Shown here piece after piece: positions 1 to 6,014 of a stretch of DNA of 64,000 nt (within the stretch, counting starts at the first letter, position 1; each line of letters opens with the position of its first letter). The notes beneath the pieces were generated by a model. The model searched no databases and had not been told where the DNA came from. It saw only the letters and a list, made by a program, of their open reading frames with translations. The stretch is taken from contig JAFGWC010000046.1 in the NCBI GenBank assembly GCA_016937695.1, positions 62,001 to 126,000 on the forward strand, written 5' to 3'. Source of the DNA: Bacteroidales bacterium. Its GTDB lineage: Bacteria; Bacteroidota; Bacteroidia; Bacteroidales; NBLH01. The translations under genes were made by a program, and so were the position numbers.

Positions 1-1226
1 GAAATATAAACGGTTGAAAGCATTCCTTTTTCTATTCCTTTCGTTACATTAGCCCAAGCACCTAAAAATGAGCTTTTAACTACAGTATTTGTAGGATTTT
101 TATATGTTTTGGTGTAATATTCTGAAATTAATTCAATTATTATTCCTGAACCAACTCCCATAAAAGCTGCCCAAAAAACGCCAAGCGATTTATATTTTGT
201 AATTATTAATTCATCGCCAATATTTTCAGATATATTCCATTCAATAGGTAAAAAGTATTTTATTATAAAAAATGAGGATATAATAAATATAGCAGTAGAA
301 AAATATTCGCCAAATTTAAAACCTGAAAAAAAGTTATTTTCTTCGGCAGACTTAACCATAAAAGCACCCATTATTGAACTTATTATTCCAACTGCGGCTA
401 AAACCAACGGAAGTAAAACTGTTGATAATGAGTAGTTTGCGCTAAATACTTCTTGACTTACGAAAGAAGAACCAATTATCATTGCTGCAATTATAGTTGT
501 TGTATACGAATCGAAAATATTTGCGCTTGAACCTGAAACTTCACTAACATTATAAGCCAATTCCTGACCAATTTTGGCAGGATTAAGATTAGAATTTTCT
601 TTTAAGCCATTATTATCTTCATTTAATAACATATAACTTTCTTTAGCTGCATTAGCATATGTACCTCCGCCAATTTTTGAGAAAATTGCTACAGTTGAAG
701 AGCCTAGTGCAAAACCTAAAATAATGTTAAGGATATTAGTTAATCCCCAATTTATACCAATATAGCTATATGAAAAAAGAAGAGCGCTTAAACCAATTAC
801 ACTTAATGAAACCGTTGTTAGCCCATTATAAATACCTGCAGAAAAAGCAACGCTAAAAGCCTGATTTAATGAAGATTGTGCTGCTTCTACTGTTTTTTTA
901 TTAGATTTTATTGCAAACTTAAGACCCAAATAAGAAGCTAATGCAGATAAAGCCGCACCTGTTATAAATGAAAGTGCTAAATAACTGTTCGAATTTATAT
1001 CAGTTTTGGCTTTAAAAAATAATAATATCGATAATGAAGCCACAAATATTCCTAAAACTTTGTATTCTGAAATAATAAATGTTTTTGCTGCTTCAGTTAA
1101 TTTATTAACATAATTGTCTGTTTTTGTACTTCCTAATTCTTGAGTTTTCACCCAATTTTTTCTCCAAAAAGAAAATGCAAGTCCAAATATACCTGCACCG
1201 GCAATATAGTAAATTAAGTTTTCCAT
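1..1226 (-). CDS. membrane pyrophosphatase-like protein lacking catalytic residues (3' end outside window)
   Basis: About 408 codons read leftward from ATG 1226 and run off the edge. Fold landmarks of HppA-type sodium/proton-pumping pyrophosphatases are clear: EYKVLGIFV near residue 53, the KSNKKTVEAAQSSLNQAF block near 109-126, KIGGGTYANAA at 184-194, IFDSYTTTIIAAM near 237 and EYYTKTYKNPT toward the end. The block after GGGTYANAA has exactly the family length (195-241), but its metal/pyrophosphate ligands are gone. Aspartates of the DVGAD, DDPRNPA and DNVGDNVGD motifs are replaced by K195, M199, N211, S212, Q221, Y225 and E229, and the motif lysine by E203. The fold is therefore probably kept while pyrophosphate hydrolysis is lost. 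Several membrane helices are evident. It is the third gene on this strand after 1989-2480 and 1420-1956, 193 nt past the latter, with a possible TAATTTTG box at 1382-1389. The second catalytic half lies outside the window. Confidence 0.85.
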   Translation of the reverse strand, partial: MENLIYYIAGAGIFGLAFSFWRKNWVKTQELGSTKTDNYVNKLTEAAKTFIISEYKVLGIFVASLSILLFFKAKTDINSNSYLALSFITGAALSALASYLGLKFAIKSNKKTVEAAQSSLNQAFSVAFSAGIYNGLTTVSLSVIGLSALLFSYSYIGINWGLTNILNIILGFALGSSTVAIFSKIGGGTYANAAKESYMLLNEDNNGLKENSNLNPAKIGQELAYNVSEVSGSSANIFDSYTTTIIAAMIIGSSFVSQEVFSANYSLSTVLLPLVLAAVGIISSIMGAFMVKSAEENNFFSGFKFGEYFSTAIFIISSFFIIKYFLPIEWNISENIGDELIITKYKSLGVFWAAFMGVGSGIIIELISEYYTKTYKNPTNTVVKSSFLGAWANVTKGIEKGMLSTVYI

Positions 1227-1419: not shown

Positions 1420-1956
1420 TTAATTAGATTTTATATTTTGTTTGTTATAAAAACCCAGAATTATACCTAAAACAACAGAAAAAATTGCTGCTAATCCAAT
1501 CTGAAATGGTTTTGGAAGCATAAAAGTTATAGTATGTGCAGGAATCCAAAACCAAAGAAGAGATAACATTCCTTTATCAATTTTTTCCCAGTTATTTTTT
1601 TTAGAAATTAAATTATCTAAAAACCGATGGAAGATAACCAAAAAAGGCCCATATTGTAAATTCATTGATGATGATATCGCAAATGATTTAGTGAAGATAT
1701 TTAGCTCTGGTAACATTTTATGCTCAATTAATATGTCTACAAAACCATGAAAACCAACAAAGGCATATTTTATTGTTACTGCAATAACTGCCCATTCTAA
1801 CATTTTTAATATTAAAGTTAAGTATGTATATGGTAAAAATATTTTTTTTTCGATAATCCATTTTGATATTATATCGCCAAAAGTTCCTAAAATAGCAAAT
1901 TGAACCATTGCTGTTAATATTGGATATGTTTTTACTAAATCAATATACCAGTTCAT
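1420..1956 (-). CDS. Mpv17/PMP22-like four-helix membrane protein
   Basis: 178 aa, mostly hydrophobic, with about four membrane segments. The landmarks match the eukaryotic Mpv17/PMP22 family in order: an N-terminal W-Y-L-P-x(14)-GD pattern (W3, P12, G27-D28), a central GP with an LD a few residues on (G103-P104, L113-D114), and a C-terminal WIPA at 137-140 leading into TFMLPKPF, as in the family's W-P-x-x-N-F-x-x-V-P signature. The usual central DQ motif is not evident. Family members are inner-membrane channel-like proteins of uncertain substrate. It lies 32 nt after the small two-helix protein and upstream of the pyrophosphatase-like gene on the same strand, so the three may be co-transcribed. 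Similarity was judged by eye, so the family call is moderate; function is unknown. Confidence 0.6.
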   Translation of the reverse strand: MNWYIDLVKTYPILTAMVQFAILGTFGDIISKWIIEKKIFLPYTYLTLILKMLEWAVIAVTIKYAFVGFHGFVDILIEHKMLPELNIFTKSFAISSSMNLQYGPFLVIFHRFLDNLISKKNNWEKIDKGMLSLLWFWIPAHTITFMLPKPFQIGLAAIFSVVLGIILGFYNKQNIKSN

Positions 1957-2560: not shown

Positions 2561-4681
2561 TTATTGTTTTTCAGGTTTTGGAAGAAGCACTTTTCTTGAT
2601 AATTTCAGTTTTCCTGATTTTTTATCAACATCAATTAGCTTAACTTGAATCATTTGGCCTTCTTTTAAAACTTCTTCAACTTTTTCTAATCTTTTCCATT
2701 CAATTTCAGAAATATGAAGCAAACCATCTTTTCCAGGTAAAATTTCAACAAATGCACCAAAAGGCACAATCGATTTAACTTTTCCTGTATAGATATCTCC
2801 AATTTCAGGAACAGTAACAATTGCTTTAATTCTTACAATTGCAGCATCTAAATTATCTTTATTAACGCTGGAAATGAGAACATGTCCTTTATTTTCAATT
2901 TCTTCAATTGTAATAACAGTACTTGTAAGTTCTTGTATTTCCTGAATTATTTTTCCGCCAGGGCCAATAACTGCACCAATCATTTCTTTTGGAATAATTA
3001 TTTTTTCAATTCTTGGAACGTGAGGTTTATAATCTTCTCTTGGTTCACTTATTGTTTCAAGCATTTTTCCTAAAATATGAGCTCTTCCTTCTTTTGCTTG
3101 ATTTAATGCTTTTTCAAGAATTTCGTATGACATTCCGTCAACTTTAATATCCATTTGGCAAGCTGTAATACCTTCACTTGTACCAGTAACTTTAAAGTCC
3201 ATATCGCCAAGATGGTCTTCATCTCCAAGAATATCTGAAAGAACAGTATATCTATCTTCATTATCCAAAATCAAACCCATTGCAATACCTGAAACTGGTC
3301 TTTTTATTTTAACACCAGCATCCATAAGAGCCAATGTACCAGCACAAACAGTAGCCATCGATGAAGAACCGTTTGATTCTAAAATATCAGAAACTATTCT
3401 TATTACATAAGGATTTTCATTTGAACTTGGCAACATTGGTTTTAGAGCTCTAAGAGCAAGATTTCCGTGACCAACTTCTCTTCTGCTTAATCCGCGTGAT
3501 GGTCTGGCATCACCAGTTGAAAATGGTGGAAAATTATAATGCAATAAAAATTTATCTCTTCCTTGTTCAAGAACTTCGTCAATTATTTTTTCATCTAATT
3601 TTGTTCCTAATGTTACTGTTGTTAAAGATTGAGTTTCGCCTCTTGTAAAAATTGCAGAACCGTGTGCGGAAGGTAAATAATCAATTTCTGACCAAATTGG
3701 TCTGATTTCGGTTGATTTTCTTCCGTCAAGACGAATTCCTTCATCTAAAAGCAAGTTACGAACAGCTTTTTTCTCAATATCATGGAAATATTTACTGATA
3801 AAGAAAGCTAATTCTTCTTTTTGCTCATCGCTTAAAGTTTCAATAAATTCTGTTTTTATTGCTGAAAATGCGTCAGAGCGTTCGTGTTTAGATAATGCTT
3901 GTTTTGCTATATCATACAATTTTTGATAAGCAAAATCATTCATATTTTTAAATAAATCTTCTTTGACTTCTTCTCTTTCGTAGTCTCTTTTAATAATATT
4001 TAAGTCTTTAGCCATGTCAATTTGAGCTTGGCATTGAATTTTGATTGCGTCATGAGCAAATTTAATTGCTTCAAGCATATCTTTTTCCGAAACTTCTTTC
4101 ATTTCGCCTTCAACCATCATTACGTCATCAATGGTTGCAGCAACCATAATGTCTAAATCAGCTTTATTATTTTCTTCTATTGAAGGATTAATTTTAAATT
4201 TTCCATCTATTCTGGCAACTCTGACTTCTGAAATTGGACCGTTAAAAGGAACATCAGAAACAGAAAGTGCGGCAGAAGCTGCAAGTCCGGCTAAAGAGTC
4301 TGGCATTGATTCGGCTTCAGCAGAAATAAGGCTTATTGTAACAAATGTTTCAGCATGAAAATCATCTGGAAATAAAGGACGAAGTGCTCTGTCAACTAGT
4401 CTGGCAACTAAAATTGAATTATCTCCGGGTCTTCCTTCTCTTCTTAAAAATCCGCCTGGAAATCGGCCAACAGCAGAAAAATTTTCTTTGTATTCAACAG
4501 ATAGAGGCATAAAATCGGCTTCAATTTTATTTTCTCTTGCAGAAACAACTGTGGCAAGTAACATTGTTTTACCCATTTTAACAACAACAGAACCATCTGC
4601 TTGTTTTGCTAATTTTCCGGTTTCTATTGATATAGTTCTTCCATCGCCTAAATCTATATCTTTTTTGTATAAATTATACAT
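2561..4681 (-). CDS. pnp: polyribonucleotide nucleotidyltransferase (PNPase)
   Basis: 706 aa, normal length. PNPase is a trimeric phosphorolytic 3'-5' exoribonuclease of RNA turnover. Two RNase PH repeats are visible: the first with the [16 protein letters not shown] region near residue 75, the second with [14 protein letters not shown] near 380 and [16 protein letters not shown] near 485. A KH domain follows (about 558-627, GXXG loop GPGGK) and then an S1 domain (628-700, [20 protein letters not shown]). It lies downstream of rpsO on the same strand, the widespread rpsO-pnp order, with a hairpin between them. In other bacteria PNPase autoregulates through its leader; nothing here proves that. 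Confidence 0.98.
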
Positions 4682-5452: not shown

Positions 5453-6014
5453 CTAGCTTTTGTTAAAAGTAACAATTATTTCTTTTAATTGTTCAGCTTG
5501 AGCTGATAATTGTTCTGCACTAGCTGACATTTCTTCAGCAGAGGTCGAATTCTGATTTGTTATTTTAGTTAATTGTTGAATTGAATTATTAACAAGATAC
5601 CTCCTTTTTGCTGTTCTTTGCTTGCAGAAGCTATTTCTTTCATTAATTCAGCATTACCATCATTCTCAATCAAGCTTTTCTCAAGTGCCCTTTGAGCACT
5701 TTCAGAAACAGTAGTTCCAGTTTTTGATAATTCTTCAATTTCAGCAGATGCAATTTGACTCCTTTGAGCGAGATTTTTGACTTTGTTTGCAACAACGGTA
5801 AAACCTTTACCTTTTTCCACTGCTCTAGCCGCTTCTACAGAAGCATTTAATGCTAACATATTAGTTTGATGAGCTATTTTTGCAATAATTCCAGTTTTCT
5901 TCGAAATCTCTTTAACCAATTCAATAGTTCTAATAATAACTTTACTACTTTCTTTTAAATTAGTAGAGGCTTTAAGAGGATTGAGGAATCATCTTTAACT
6001 TTGGTTAATTTCAT
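5453..6014 (-). pseudogene. methyl-accepting chemotaxis protein signalling-domain remnant
   Basis: Only the cytoplasmic tip and adjacent coiled coil of a chemoreceptor remain; sensor and membrane parts are absent. The middle (about 5620-5919) reads [20 protein letters not shown] then [20 protein letters not shown], the MCP hairpin. The frame changes near 5597-5605, after EQQKG. In the next frame [20 protein letters not shown] and SASAEQLSAQAEQLK continue the coiled coil to a TAG at 5453-5455. Upstream, a frame beginning [11 protein letters not shown] at 6014 also needs a shift near 5985 to join. Charge changes at normally conserved sites ([12 protein letters not shown] for the usual VADEVRKLAERS) fit relaxed selection. 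No other chemotaxis gene is in the window. Confidence 0.85.

Follow-up and report, generated by a model that had tools for sequence, protein, structure and literature searches.

The window, a stretch of 64,000 nt of a Bacteroidales genome (G000:C76:62001-126000), opens within a gene for a protein of the membrane pyrophosphatase (mPPase) family. The gene lies on the minus strand at positions 1-1226, where the window holds the first 408 of its 725 codons (3-1226); the remainder lies beyond the window start at C76:62001, and the complete gene spans C76:61049-63226 on the minus strand. The full open reading frame (L002:1486-3663, minus strand) encodes 725 amino acids with no stops and no frameshifts. 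The protein matches Pfam family PF03030 (H_PPase) with 443 bits, where the cut-off is 29.7, and its residues 13-721 align to profile positions 1-645. It scores 562.8 bits against NCBIfam NF001955, the equivalog for sodium-translocating pyrophosphatase, which is below the cut-off of 1059. The AlphaFold2 model (pLDDT 88.1, pTM 0.89) predicts that the 16-helix mPPase fold is kept, and Foldseek comparison of this model yielded TM scores of 0.88 to 5GPJ and 0.85 to 5LZQ, with a maximum of 0.89. All of the best 36 PDB matches were mPPases.

Several landmarks of the family can be placed on the minus strand by translation and alignment. The fold-level motif KSNKKT (residues 107-112, positions 891-908) is kept at the end of TM3, and the TM5 packing motif is kept as GGGTY (residues 186-190, positions 657-671), the family form being GGGIY. 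The former hydrolytic block occupies residues 195-241 of TM5, the following loop and TM6 (positions 504-644). Within it, the ion-gate stretch NIFDS (residues 236-240, positions 507-521) places Asn at 6.50, Asp at 6.53 and Ser at 6.54. The upstream neighbour (1420-1956, minus strand) encodes 178 amino acids without a Pfam or NCBIfam match and is not kept beside the gene within the genus. Farther upstream is pnp, named by its translation as the gene for polynucleotide phosphorylase (2561-4681, minus strand). A short open reading frame at 5569-5919 resembles the signalling domain of methyl-accepting chemotaxis proteins and is possibly a remnant.

The substitutions extend well beyond this block. 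In the numbering of the mung-bean enzyme VrPPase, the N-terminal half carries the changes K250N, D253K, D257M, K261E, E263N, D269N, D279Q, D283Y, D287E and D294N, and the C-terminal half carries D507E, D691N, K694E, D723A, D727N, K730R and D731N, while E268, N273, N534, K541 and K742 are kept. The Mg-PPi network of a functional mPPase is accordingly not there: D253, D257, D283, D287, D507, D691, D727 and D731 have become Lys, Met, Tyr, Glu, Glu, Asn, Asn and Asn. In active enzymes the nucleophilic water is activated by two aspartates, D6.43 and D16.39 (PMC5150537), of which one is Glu and the other Asn in the window protein. Summed over 18 pocket positions the net charge is 0, whereas intact classical relatives reach -8 and the 1-1 type of mPPase described below reaches -7. 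Because its Mg-PPi ligands are missing, the window protein is probably unable to hydrolyse PPi or to use it at all, as judged from sequence.

The original prediction, made from the window alone, had described an HppA-family pseudo-enzyme of conserved structure, without PPi hydrolysis and with a possible role as gate, ion channel, transporter or regulator, whose residues 195-241 align without gaps to the active-site block, with the fold-level motifs GGGTY and KSNKKT surviving around it. The alignment agrees on each of these points, and the family fold is supported by sequence, model and Foldseek. The aspartates of the block are replaced as described: D253, D257, D269, D279, D283 and D294 are lost, and D287 is Glu, still acidic. 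The block is not stripped altogether, as E268 and N273 stay and the gate acid at 6.53, a Glu in relatives, remains acidic as D239. A change of the motif lysine to Glu was correctly read at K261; the block holds two motif lysines, however, and the other, K250, is Asn. The complete gene, once obtained, proved to be the intact frame of 725 amino acids. Displacement of the acids is ruled out by the gap-free alignment across the block, and an assembly error or frameshift is ruled out as the cause of the losses by the intact reading frame and by the same pattern in ten species, nine of them in addition to the source of the window.

A normal hppA in the same genome, which had been proposed as a check, is present on contig 101. 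It encodes a second mPPase of 797 amino acids (600 bits) that has every catalytic acid, which rules out the window protein as the sole mPPase of its genome. A soluble pyrophosphatase is also encoded. The intact copy is of the 1-1 type (PRK00733.1-1), shares only 19% identity with the window protein, and has counterparts in most genomes that carry a pseudo-mPPase, as proteins of the window type are termed here: 9 of the 10 such Bacteroidales genomes have it, with two of the nine copies fragmentary or split (a contig-end fragment in G003 and a split gene in G004). No 1-1-type gene was found in the tenth genome, G168, which is 91% complete. There, the stripped mPPase (L135, on G168:C171) is the only mPPase found and has Arg at 16.50 and Glu at 6.50.

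Pseudo-mPPases occur in all seven genomes of the genus, and the six other homologues are 35-43% identical to the window protein and show the same type of loss. Public records of these homologues are Bacteroidales or Bacteroidetes MAGs, such as isolate 4572_117. Screening 247 genomes from the order brought three more to light, in two other families (G062, G063 and G168). Intact mPPase relatives in neighbouring families have every catalytic acid, and a genome from the genus of G062 (G255) carries an intact classical mPPase (865 bits) and no second match. In the phylum sample and its follow-up, second copies in the re-examined genomes were only full-scoring or fragmentary among the matches listed, and rare cases may have been missed.

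That such proteins could mark a separate clade had also been anticipated, and the trees bear this out. The seven genus members form one clade (100/100) nested among intact Bacteroidales mPPases, with the intact L006 (42% identical) as its sister (97/95). All ten pseudo-mPPases fall in one clade inside the intact mPPases that carry E6.53, with support of 100/100, or 94/100 when the catalytic columns are removed. The three extra proteins (L135, L144 and L147) sit on very long branches, so long-branch attraction may affect their placing, and they may have arisen independently within Bacteroidales. Near its pseudo-mPPase gene the window genome has dnaB and a gene encoding a 419-amino-acid protein, and a similar pair lies near the intact mPPase gene of G057, which is consistent with vertical descent. 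We found no conserved neighbour of the pseudo-mPPase genes that names a pathway, and the neighbours differ among species and families.

The ten Bacteroidales proteins share much of the loss. None of the ten retains D279 or D727, and nine have lost D257. D691, D283 and D287 are altered in every protein, leaving Glu at D691 in two proteins, at D283 in two and at D287 in one. Net charge over the 18 pocket positions lies between -1 and +3, and position 12.50 is Lys or Arg throughout. The ion gate, whose residue roles we take from published work (PMC5150537), has fared differently. Residues 6.50, 6.53, 6.54, 16.46 and 16.50 are Asn, Asp, Ser, Thr and Lys in the window protein and mostly Asp, Glu, Ser, Asn and Lys in the other members. 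An acid at 6.53 and a base at 16.50 are present in all ten, and 6.50 is Asp or Glu in nine, the window protein with its Asn being the exception. The hydrolytic acids are identical in 17 of 110 cells, compared with 25 of 30 for the gate residues D6.50, E6.53 and K16.50; counted by charge class the figures are 32/110 and 29/30, for which Fisher's test gives approximately 5e-12, a value that overstates the contrast because the sequences are related and not independent.

Conservation along the helices, divided into halves by hand at the helix limits of the model, follows a similar trend. Each inner helix of the pseudo-mPPases (5, 6, 11, 12, 15 and 16) shows higher conservation in its periplasmic than in its cytoplasmic half, the values being 0.51 versus 0.38 within the genus and 0.43 versus 0.28 across all ten. 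Intact relatives show the reverse overall, with 0.92 for the cytoplasmic and 0.85 for the periplasmic half. The outer helices of the pseudo-mPPases fall in between (0.44 in the genus), and whole inner helices are no more conserved than outer ones, which counts against a role centred on the gate. The pattern suggests that the periplasmic half, with the gate and exit channel, is the part of the pseudo-mPPase that selection still sees best.

As codon-model omega was saturated, it was not used, and selection was measured in the closest species pair (G001-G005). By NG86 the pseudo-mPPase has a dN/dS of 0.141, against 0.030 for its intact paralogue, with dN values of 0.20 and 0.03. Had drift without selection led to the same protein identity, approximately 12 stops would be expected in this pair and, in the window lineage, 25-36; none was seen, and the ten stop-free frames have terminal branches of 0.2-2.9. 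The low dN/dS and the missing stops therefore indicate purifying selection on the pseudo-mPPase, approximately five times weaker than that on the intact paralogue. An mPPase gene elsewhere (G288:C1:475540-477662; L155, L162), in a single-contig genome, has three internal stops, as real decay would look.

The explanation that we favour, and to which we would give an even chance, is that the window protein is a selected pseudo-mPPase that cannot make use of PPi and owes its retention to the half with the ion gate. A vertical descendant of a Bacteroidales E6.53 (Na+-type) mPPase would have lost Mg-PPi binding and hydrolysis while retaining the fold, the basic residue at 12.50, and the half that holds the gate and exit channel. 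Without PPi to drive it, such a protein might act at the gate as a PPi-independent conduit for Na+ or H+, a leak valve or an exchanger in the inner membrane, and the cells would pump by their other mPPase. Indirect support for a gate role comes from the continued conservation of gate charges and periplasmic halves. These charges could also persist only to hold the pore shut in a protein that serves otherwise, for example by tuning the intact pump.

This last thought leads to the main rival, an unlikely one, in which the dead protein is a regulatory or heteromeric partner that pairs with or tunes the live 1-1-type pump. mPPases form dimers and show half-of-the-sites reactivity (PMC10897367), and a dead protomer could therefore hold its partner locked in one state. 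The presence of the 1-1-type copy in nine of the ten genomes fits such a role, as does the placing of the two genes in some of them: they are convergent neighbours in G002 and G006, co-directional in G062 with approximately 390 bp between them, and approximately 5 kb apart in G005. Against it, they are on separate contigs in G000, G001, G003, G004 and G063, no 1-1-type gene turned up in G168, and the window protein shares only 19% identity with its own intact copy. Moreover, pairs of mPPase genes that are not known to include a dead member adjoin in Bacteroidota genomes of other families, and adjacency thus does not need loss. These are classical genes beside 1-1-type genes, checked as intact in G219:C51:23902-28624 and recognized by score only in G291:C90, G307:C1, G365:C8 and G311:C7; such an arrangement may point to paired action of the two subtypes.

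Slow decay of a gene made redundant by the gain of the 1-1-type pump and the soluble PPase is improbable. The redundant functions are present in the genome and the pseudo-mPPase evolves faster than its paralogue in the same species pair, but neutral drift would have left internal stops in the ten species, the gate charges stay, and true decay of an mPPase gene, as in G288, looks different. Slightly more doubtful is an emptied pocket that binds another ligand, making the protein a sensor or transporter of something else. The pocket, once strongly negative, is now neutral or positive, and this change and the invariable base at 12.50 would suit such a reading, but the cytoplasmic half that holds the pocket is the least conserved in the clade, which fits no shared new ligand. 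We consider it very improbable that the proteins are unusual pyrophosphatases still working with their remaining acids. Individual members do still carry Asp or Glu at D507, D691, D723, D731 or D253, but nearly all have lost or replaced D6.43 (D287), D257, D279, D691 and D727, and the window protein has acids at only 3 of the 11 hydrolytic positions counted (E268, D287 and D507).

The closest known systems are the K+-dependent Na+-PPases of the Thermotoga maritima type (4AV3, 5LZQ) and the Bacteroidales E6.53 mPPases, for which NF001955 is the best NCBIfam match. The window protein resembles them in the fold with its 16 helices, S6.54, the acid at 6.53, K16.50 and K12.50, and differs in that the Mg-PPi network is gone save for scattered residues and A12.46, part of the K+ site, has been substituted. 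The 1-1 type (NF001950) belongs to the same superfamily and is present in the same genomes, sometimes as the adjoining gene, but keeps every catalytic acid and has K12.46. Our guess is that this type may be the divergent Na+-regulated H+-PPase of Luoto et al. (2015).

Pseudoenzymes exist in other membrane families, including the inactive rhomboids, in which the fold is likewise kept, catalysis is lost, and selection continues beside active paralogues. A literature search found no earlier description of inactive mPPases, which is weak evidence since subscription journals were thinly covered. As they score above the Pfam cut-off, pseudo-mPPases are likely annotated as active pyrophosphatases, and such annotation would mislead metabolic models. 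No other ion pump is known to be related to mPPases, and the way in which their hydrolysis is coupled to the gate is disputed (PMC9408878). With a natural series of proteins that carry the gate but lack the hydrolytic centre, the gate can be studied by itself.

A second, separate case of degenerate mPPases was met in a marine Rickettsiales-like family, reached via L110. It is conceivable, though we hold the view only tentatively, that the mPPase lineage has given rise at least twice, here and in Bacteroidales, to PPi-independent Na+/H+ channels or exchangers. Three of the four Rickettsiales-like genomes (G251, G252 and G254) carry a degenerate mPPase of approximately 270 bits, and two of these three also have an intact-scoring mPPase (839-846 bits). 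In the tree these degenerate proteins stand well apart from the Bacteroidales clade, and all three keep D6.50 and K16.50 and have Lys in place of D287. Their genes are syntenic on the minus strand (L114:4571-6652, L115:5049-7088 and L116:5752-7788), within a common order that reads, with names taken from translations, recO, pseudo-mPPase, tpiA and ppiB.
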